From assembly GCA_004296455.1 (NCBI GenBank), contig AP018280.1, positions 1,178,001 to 1,242,000 on the forward strand: DNA of 64,000 bases, in the 5' to 3' direction. Positions within the stretch are counted from its first letter, which is position 1, and each line of letters starts with the position of its first letter. Both the position numbers and the translations under genes were made by a program. Below the pieces are notes generated by a model. It saw only the letters and a list, made by a program, of their open reading frames with translations. It did no database searches and was not told the DNA's origin. Of the stretch, positions 6,970 through 7,454 are shown in pieces. This DNA comes from Calothrix sp. NIES-4101 (GTDB lineage Bacteria; Cyanobacteriota; Cyanobacteriia; Cyanobacteriales; Nostocaceae).

Positions 6970-7152
6970 ATCCCACACAAGTTAATAAAGCTATTTTTAC
7001 AATTCGTCTGCTCTACTATTGAGCTACATCTCCAAAATAAATTGTCAATGATTAATTATCAGTCAAAACAAATAACGGAGATGATGGGATTTGCACCCAT
7101 AACCAAACGATTAATTATATGTATGTAGGCTTTATAAGTCAGGACGCAGGAT
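6970..7152 (-). ncRNA. Y-RNA-like unit E with a circularly permuted tRNA fold
   Basis: 183 nt. The terminal stem AUCCUGCG pairs with UGUGGGAU reading G-U as paired; the inner stem AUAAAGC/GCUUUAU is perfect. Inside, the T arm comes first (AUGGG/CCCAU, loop UGCAAAU). The acceptor 3' strand CAUCUCC is next, then a linker of about 44 nt, the acceptor 5' strand GGAGAUG, UA, and the D arm (GCUC/GAGC with AAUAGUA loop). The anticodon stem is formed by UCGUU upstream of the T arm and GACGA after the D arm, so the Y stem replaces the anticodon loop. The acceptor end is closed, as in described YrlA RNAs. Confidence 0.8.
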
Positions 7153-7164
7153 TGATAATTTGGA

Positions 7165-7289
7165 ACTTCACGCAAGTTAAGAAAGCTGTTTGCGTATACA
7201 TAGGAATCGAACCTATTACTCTTCGATTACAAGTCGAATGCTCTACCAAATGAGCTAGTATGTAAGCTTTCTAAATTAGGGCGCAAAGT
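7165..7289 (-). ncRNA. Y-RNA-like unit F with a tRNA-Thr(UGU)-like cloverleaf
   Basis: 125 nt. The terminal stem ACUUUGCGC/GCGUGAAGU is 9 pairs with two G-U. The internal loop has CCC opposite ACUU, and the inner stem AGAAAGCU/AGCUUUCU is perfect. The enclosed fold is in normal order: the D arm GCUC/GAGC with both Gs in the loop, the anticodon stem UUCGA/UCGAA with loop CUUGUAA (triplet UGU), and the T stem AUAGG/CCUAU with the canonical loop UUCGAUU. The acceptor is reduced to about 4 bp (AUAC/GUAU), so aminoacylation is unlikely. A tRNA scanner would probably call this a tRNA-Thr pseudogene. Confidence 0.8.
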
Positions 7290-7316
7290 GATATTTTTAG
7301 TAATATTTTTAAATTC

Positions 7317-7454
7317 TCGCACAAGTTAATAAAGCTGTTGTTTACATTTTGCCTATACCATTTCGGCTACATCGCCTGAGAATGGCGATGGTAGGATTTG
7401 AACCTACATGGTTTTTCAACCAATTGTGTGTAAGCTCTATCTGTTAGGGTGCGA
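7317..7454 (-). ncRNA. Y-RNA-like unit G with a circularly permuted tRNA fold and extra arm
   Basis: 138 nt. The terminal stem UCGCAC/GUGCGA is perfect; the inner stem AUAGAGCU/AGCUUUAU is complete with one G-U. Order inside: the anticodon-stem strand UUACA, a GGUU-GAAA-AACC hairpin resembling a long variable arm, the T arm GUAGG/CCUAC with loop UUCAAAU, and the acceptor CAUCGCC/GGCGAUG closed by a 7-nt loop. Then come UA, the D arm GCC/GGC and the second anticodon-stem strand UGUAA. It has the same permuted layout as unit E, with a shorter acceptor loop. It is the first RNA of the array in transcription order. Confidence 0.8.

Follow-up and report, generated by a model that had tools for sequence, protein, structure and literature searches.

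Two of the seven RNA units encoded upstream of a predicted Ro60-fold protein, units E and G, carry tRNA-like modules in circularly permuted order. We read them as YrlA-topology Y RNAs of a divergent cyanobacterial Ro60 system, with docking as their most likely job, and assign this reading a probability of about 0.6. The window, that is, the whole stretch of 64,000 nt analyzed here, comes from a cyanobacterial genome of 7.59 Mb.

Unit array and the Ro60-like protein

Seven units with common paired ends are found on the minus strand of the window, all upstream of the gene for a 487-aa VWA protein (3550-5013), and follow each other along transcription in the order G, F, E, D, C, B, A. The consensus of their ends is GCGYCCUNA..AAAGCYUACAUAC on the 5' side and AGCUUUNUUAACUUGNG on the 3' side. 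Units E (6974-7147) and G (7318-7452) combine a Ro-type stem with a circularly permuted tRNA-like module. Units F (7169-7284, anticodon UGU, stem at the acceptor end), C (6585-6699, UAG) and B (5605-5729, UCC, 7-bp acceptor) are normal-order tRNA modules and the only units called as ordinary tRNAs by ARAGORN and Rfam. Unit D (6754-6954) mimics 23S rRNA domain IV (H68-H71) in circularly permuted order, the Ro-type stem taking the place of the H69 loop. Unit A (5067-5135), immediately 5' of the Ro-like gene, is a stem bearing no more than a small hairpin; it occupies this position in most related arrays too, and could be an autoregulatory leader. Because the units have the same strand and spacing, they probably form one operon; scans for sigma-70 promoters and terminators gave chance-level results only. 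Two minus-strand ORFs without Pfam match lie between units (5149-5586 and 5765-6415); the first (145 aa) recurs in 15 loci and the second (216 aa) in 6. A dense array of at least 15 tRNAs is located on a 91-kb contig of the host (G000:C2:10400-12300) and resembles the long tRNA operons of Nostocales.

By its structural model (pLDDT 74), the 487-aa protein is a divergent member of the Ro60 fold, a helical ring plus VWA domain. Ro60 structures match the model far above all else, with a Foldseek E-value of 2.6e-12 to the human Ro60 complex 9nfa and VIA Z scores of 20.6 over 434 residues to 1yvp and 17.5 to Rsr 2nvo. The homologues keep the motif DKSGSM, which has the MIDAS-like form DxSxS. A search of the 487-aa protein with Pfam TROVE (PF05731) gave no match.

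Permuted tRNA fold of units E and G

In unit E, read 5' to 3' on the minus strand, the 3' strand of the anticodon stem (UCGUU, 7110-7106) leads through a 5-nt variable loop into the T arm (AUGGG-UGCAAAU-CCCAU, 7100-7084) and the 3' strand of the acceptor (CAUCUCC, 7083-7077). A 43-nt linker (7076-7034) leads to the acceptor 5' strand (GGAGAUG, 7033-7027), which is followed by UA, the D arm (GCUC-AAUAGUA-GAGC, 7024-7010), a single A and the 5' strand of the anticodon stem (GACGA, 7008-7004). Unit G has the T arm at 7407-7391, the acceptor strands CAUCGCC (7390-7384) and GGCGAUG (7376-7370) on either side of a 7-nt linker (7383-7377), and the D arm GCC-GAAAUGGUAUA-GGC at 7367-7351. The acceptor stem has 7 bp in both units. 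The permuted order proposed in a first-pass annotation thus agrees strand for strand with both units, and so does the GGUU-GAAA-AACC arm that it placed at the variable-loop position of G (7421-7410). Its linker length for G was right, and that for E, given as about 44 nt, is corrected by one nucleotide.

Under a strict definition (T stem 5/5, loop T[TG]C[AG]A, an acceptor with 7/7 Watson-Crick pairs, U8, G10 and a D stem that pairs), a search of both strands finds two matches in the window, E and G only, and none in 250 random Markov windows. A relaxed version, with G-U pairs and a single mismatch in the T stem permitted, yields about 7 chance matches per window, too permissive for a chance test, and was replaced by the strict one; the case therefore rests on perfect pairing and on the homologues described below. 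Folding, suggested earlier as a check, recovers the permuted arms of both units at minimum energy. For E the minimum-energy structure is the permuted cloverleaf including the anticodon stem, with a z-score of only -0.8, so that thermodynamics by itself is unremarkable; for G it has the T, acceptor, D and variable arms (z -4.2). The claim that the outermost strands make the anticodon stem is accordingly supported for E and doubtful for G as drawn. The UUACA/UGUAA stem of G is partly present in the minimum-energy structure and missing from the centroid, and its UUACA belongs to a 5' stem motif common to all units regardless of topology. In the register of the orthologues (ACAUU/AAUGU in L002, L003 and L024; UUGUU/AACAA in L012), G pairs at 4/5 positions.

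The resemblance to YrlA that had been pointed out for these units is borne out by the Rfam YrlA covariance model (RF02553), which aligns E end to end (1-114, 31.2 bits, E-value 2.7e-5) with the same arms in the same order. The match to G is partial (30-81, 17.5 bits), and neither unit reaches the gathering cut-off of 69 bits. A permuted unit of the viral contig L133 scores 29 bits. Both E and G show the arm order of YrlA, in which T arm, acceptor 3' strand, acceptor 5' strand and D arm lie inside an anticodon-like stem on the Ro stem, this stem being weak in G.

Conservation of the permuted class

A genome scan yielded 36 related loci. Together with the window they contain 158 units, 153 of them with both stem strands: 67 normal-order tRNA modules, 24 permuted modules, 12 mimics of 23S rRNA, and small hairpins or degenerate forms for the rest. 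The permuted count rises from 24 to 26 if L004 and L031 are added, which by eye appear permuted with a T-loop insertion. Short inserted repeats were seen in the T loop of several modules (L004 -846, L031 -1195, L015 -1806 and L016 -2673). The acceptor pairs at 7/7 positions in 23 of the 24 permuted units, drawn from 17 different stems, and none of 20000 shuffles is as good. Unaided, RNAalifold recovers the stem and the T, acceptor and D arms from the 23 aligned cyanobacterial permuted units, in which nearly all acceptor, T and D pairs are conserved; 16 of the 27 pairs carry double changes, and counts on the named structure agree. The covariation score is 0.510, compared with 0.198 +/- 0.018 for shuffled and at most 0.17 for slid alignments.

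For the anticodon stem, a first test on the permuted units, which included some later found to retain a whole anticodon arm, gave 98 against a mean of 83.6 (0/5000). A rerun with permissive arm calls, which handicap E and G, still gave 3/10000. The permissive variable-arm detector was discarded; it mislabelled some class-I units, E among them. Units like E (n=8 by inspection) are opened in the anticodon loop and have a 5-nt variable loop, and units like G are opened there as well, but with a variable arm that is often GNRA-capped. Five units in other species (L018, L022 twice, L035 and L037) have their opening between the D arm and the anticodon arm and keep the latter complete, as probably does L027 -687. 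In phage LR756511.1 and viral contig L146, the genes follow linear tRNA order and the stem forms an additional hairpin that separates the D arm from the anticodon arm; an earlier label of these units as 'stem inserted in the anticodon' was dropped because folding shows a separate anticodon arm. Huge-phage and viral arrays show further connectivities, including opening at the variable loop. The varied opening points and the linear stem-hairpin genes thus indicate that the tRNA body and the stem are retained although the chain is connected in varying ways.

Coupled changes at the tRNA elbow

Positions 18 and 55 were compared across 91 modules of both topologies. A18/G55 was found in 10, A18/U55 in one, G18/G55 in none and G18/U55 in 80, so that both positions change jointly (Fisher 1.7e-12, with E and its L033 orthologue included; the counts contain related sequences and few independent events). 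Within the permuted modules only, the coupling comes down to a single event, shared by E and its sister unit (Fisher 0.004). In the window, B, C and E have A18/G55, and F and G have G18/U55; the other carriers of A18/G55 are L008, L009, L020, L023, L026, L033 and L036. A coupled change across topologies points to the tRNA elbow in three dimensions, and indirectly suggests that the D and T loops of the permuted modules would meet as in a tRNA. Modification of the T loop by a TruB-type enzyme, which the first-pass annotation listed for testing, is ruled out for E, where position 55 is G, as it is in B and C; unit G has U55. G55 was also seen in a tRNA-Glu(CUC) of a tRNA array on a host plasmid.

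Two topologies in one array

The coexistence of E and G with the opposite-topology units B, C and F, noticed in the first-pass annotation, was confirmed, all on the same stem, and recurs widely: permuted and normal-order modules occur together in 22 of the 31 arrays with enough upstream sequence. The accompanying suggestion that topologies were shuffled within the locus found no signal. The permuted D and T arms resemble the normal-order modules beside them in the array no more than those in foreign arrays (the observed value was reached in 907 of 2000 shuffles), and recent shuffling is therefore not supported by the sequence comparison. Since a diverged viral contig, too, already has the two topologies side by side, each of them looks ancient and inherited on its own. 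Copying from host tRNAs was likewise rejected. With the units of the array excluded from the comparison, none of 45 parsed host tRNAs matches the D and T arms of E as well as other permuted modules do, and the best module match of G also lies above its best host match.

Proposed role of units E and G

The paired ends of the units may form a Ro-binding stem, and the inserted module folds as a tRNA body with its anticodon end fused to that stem, a junction that had been proposed earlier and that the present data support. With the anticodon end fused to the stem, the acceptor stem and the D/T elbow face outwards in E and G. Circular permutation achieves this by placing the 3' half first, with the linker bridging both acceptor strands. 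The same stem sits on the acceptor end in B, C and F, so that the anticodon loop is exposed, and the two topologies thus represent two orientations of one display. The Ro60-like protein might grip the stem, and the exposed elbow and acceptor might bring in a partner that binds tRNA, for example PNPase, along the lines suggested for YrlA. The stem of YrlA tethers Rsr and its tRNA-like domain binds PNPase (review, PMC8394870). By this comparison, docking of a tRNA-binding partner would be the best-supported role of E and G; PNPase itself is only an analogy, and docking via PNPase leaves the link between the 66-aa protein described below and the permuted units unexplained. Against the reading as a whole stand the YrlA scores below cut-off, the z-score of E, the imperfect anticodon stem of G and the miss in the TROVE search.

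The main rival takes the array as a set of decoys or baits: a Ro60-like RNP would show mimics of the targets of ribonuclease effectors and so soak up or detect toxins during phage-host or toxin conflict. The tRNA anticodon loops and 23S H69 would be among the baits, and E and G would lure enzymes that attack the acceptor or the elbow. We consider this rather unlikely, and yet it would suit the anticodon data and the phage copies better than docking does. Among non-overlapping pairs of orthologous normal-order units (F, C, B and orthologues, L002-L037; a small sample), anticodons differ at 35% of sites (19/54). The corresponding figures are 18% for spacers (1165/6420, p 0.002), 21% for third codon positions in the Ro gene (p 0.011) and 8% for the body of the unit (p 2e-8). 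The 66 modules examined carry 24 anticodons between them, and two would pair with stop codons; eight normal-order modules have A34 (AUU). Exact copying of host anticodon loops is unsupported, since the loop is present in the host set for only 25 of 67 modules and that set contains the array units themselves. The rapid anticodon change may however partly reflect relaxed constraint or local gene conversion, and it does not bear on E and G because they have no anticodon loop.

The patchy distribution of the system also speaks for the decoy reading. The Ro-like protein is present in 29 of 386 cyanobacterial genomes, in a record labelled Acidobacteria (L027, possibly mis-binned), in the 595-kb phage LR756511.1 (L135) and in a dozen IMG/VR contigs of up to 470 kb, and arrays of tRNA-like units accompany many of the viral copies (L135, L133, L137-L139, L146 and L147). 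Unit D copies another translation target: it matches 23S rRNA around H69 in two segments of swapped order, with compensatory pairs in the H69 stem. Such mimics occur in 12 arrays (e.g., L015:145-326 and L012:4707-4887) and apparently also in phage L135 (4688-4929). Wolin and colleagues suggested that YrlA might competitively inhibit an anticodon nuclease (PMC7790460). A nuclease matching the array was not found. As for the smaller cargo, a hairpin GUCUGAAGCCGUCUUCAGGC is carried by L002, L003, L004, L005, L006, L024 and L031 (units near -260 to -540), six of these seven arrays being from Fischerella or close relatives, and GCAAGCCUGAGACC.AUAGCAGGC is common to L029 and L032.

A wider form of this idea is offered as a tentative possibility. 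The Ro60-like RNP may serve as a display platform, on whose common stem each genome presents its own repertoire of mimics, to divert or sense effectors that cleave RNA when phage and host are in conflict. Normal-order units would then perhaps offer the anticodon-end view, permuted units the acceptor-end view and the permuted 23S mimic H69, with anticodons diversifying under selection. Connectivity might be free, selection acting only on the displayed shape, and huge phages carry the same kit.

A separate subsystem made up of the permuted modules and the 66-aa protein (7541-7741, minus strand) is improbable; in it the modules might be the docking RNA of the protein or a scaffold on which a ubiquitin-like or sulfur-carrier-like reaction takes place at tRNA elbows. 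The gene lies directly 5' of the first units and co-occurs with permuted units (22 and 1 versus 1 and 7, Fisher 2.3e-5), an association that may stem from common array size or ancestry. The protein is conserved in 23 arrays, that of the window included, and in viral contig L133. Its C-terminal RPEAVYG is invariant, and phage L135 has a similar RPDAIFG tail. Its model has a predicted beta-grasp (ubiquitin-like) fold with weak ubiquitin-fold matches, including the sulfur carrier TtuB (Z 4.4), and ThiF adjoins the viral copy. On the other side, VIA Z scores do not exceed 5.3, Foldseek gave no match to the model below an E-value of 0.001, and an activating enzyme was not noticed in the cyanobacterial loci.

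E and G are very unlikely to be permuted tRNA genes like those of algae and archaea, in which the 3' half comes before the 5' half, and to be processed to working tRNAs. The order of the halves is the same and the acceptor linker would be removable in principle, but the would-be loop strands continue into the conserved stem in place of an anticodon loop, and no CCA follows the acceptor strand. Bacteria, moreover, are not known to possess the splicing endonuclease of those systems. Fragments of permuted tmRNA genes, with the order T arm, acceptor 3' strand, gap and acceptor 5' strand, can practically be dismissed, since the cmscan matches to permuted and cyanobacterial tmRNA models cover only the T arm and acceptor at 13-20 bits against cut-offs of 47-70 and are outscored by YrlA on E, a full tRNA-like D arm with the 18/55 covariation is present, and the mRNA-like domain and pseudoknots are absent, 7-43 nt leaving no room for a tag frame.

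Read as YrlA-topology Y RNAs, E and G add to a class of circularly permuted tRNA mimics whose known natural representative was until now YrlA. New are the permuted and normal-order modules side by side on a single scaffold, in the majority of arrays across an entire bacterial lineage, together with a permuted 23S mimic, fast-changing anticodons, a 66-aa protein linked to permuted units and copies in huge phages. Since both topologies use one stem, module swaps can directly test why Ro60 RNAs mimic tRNA. The results also suggest that RNA homologue searches assuming a fixed chain order will miss such elements.

Comparison with known systems

The system shares with the Ro60/Rsr RNPs (RYPER in Deinococcus) the ring-plus-VWA fold, by model with Z up to 20.6, and noncoding RNAs with tRNA-like domains adjoining the gene. 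It differs in a protein sequence too diverged for Pfam TROVE, in many RNAs per locus and in the additional 66-aa protein, and RtcB/RtcA were not noticed beside the cyanobacterial copy. Permuted tRNA genes of red algae and archaea and permuted tmRNA likewise place the 3' half before the 5' half, whereas the ends of E and G are fused to a putative protein-binding stem and both units lack an anticodon loop or tag frame. In the staphylococcal peptidoglycan tRNA-Gly, which serve cell-wall synthesis as free tRNAs, U-G-C replaces T-Psi-C and G18 of the D loop is lost. The same change in B, C and E may be taken as a lead only, and the staphylococcal molecules have no Ro stem.

The closest known relative is YrlA (Salmonella; RF02553), whose crystal structure 6CU1 is a circularly permuted tRNA (PMC11472068). 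In both cases a long end stem holds an anticodon-like stem, inside which T arm, acceptor hairpin and D arm follow in this order, and the gene adjoins one for a Ro60-fold protein. Unlike YrlA, E and G score under the Rfam cut-off and differ in the sequence motif of the stem; in E, position 55 is G and the acceptor linker is 43 nt long. The array of both units also holds tRNA modules in normal order and a mimic of 23S rRNA.
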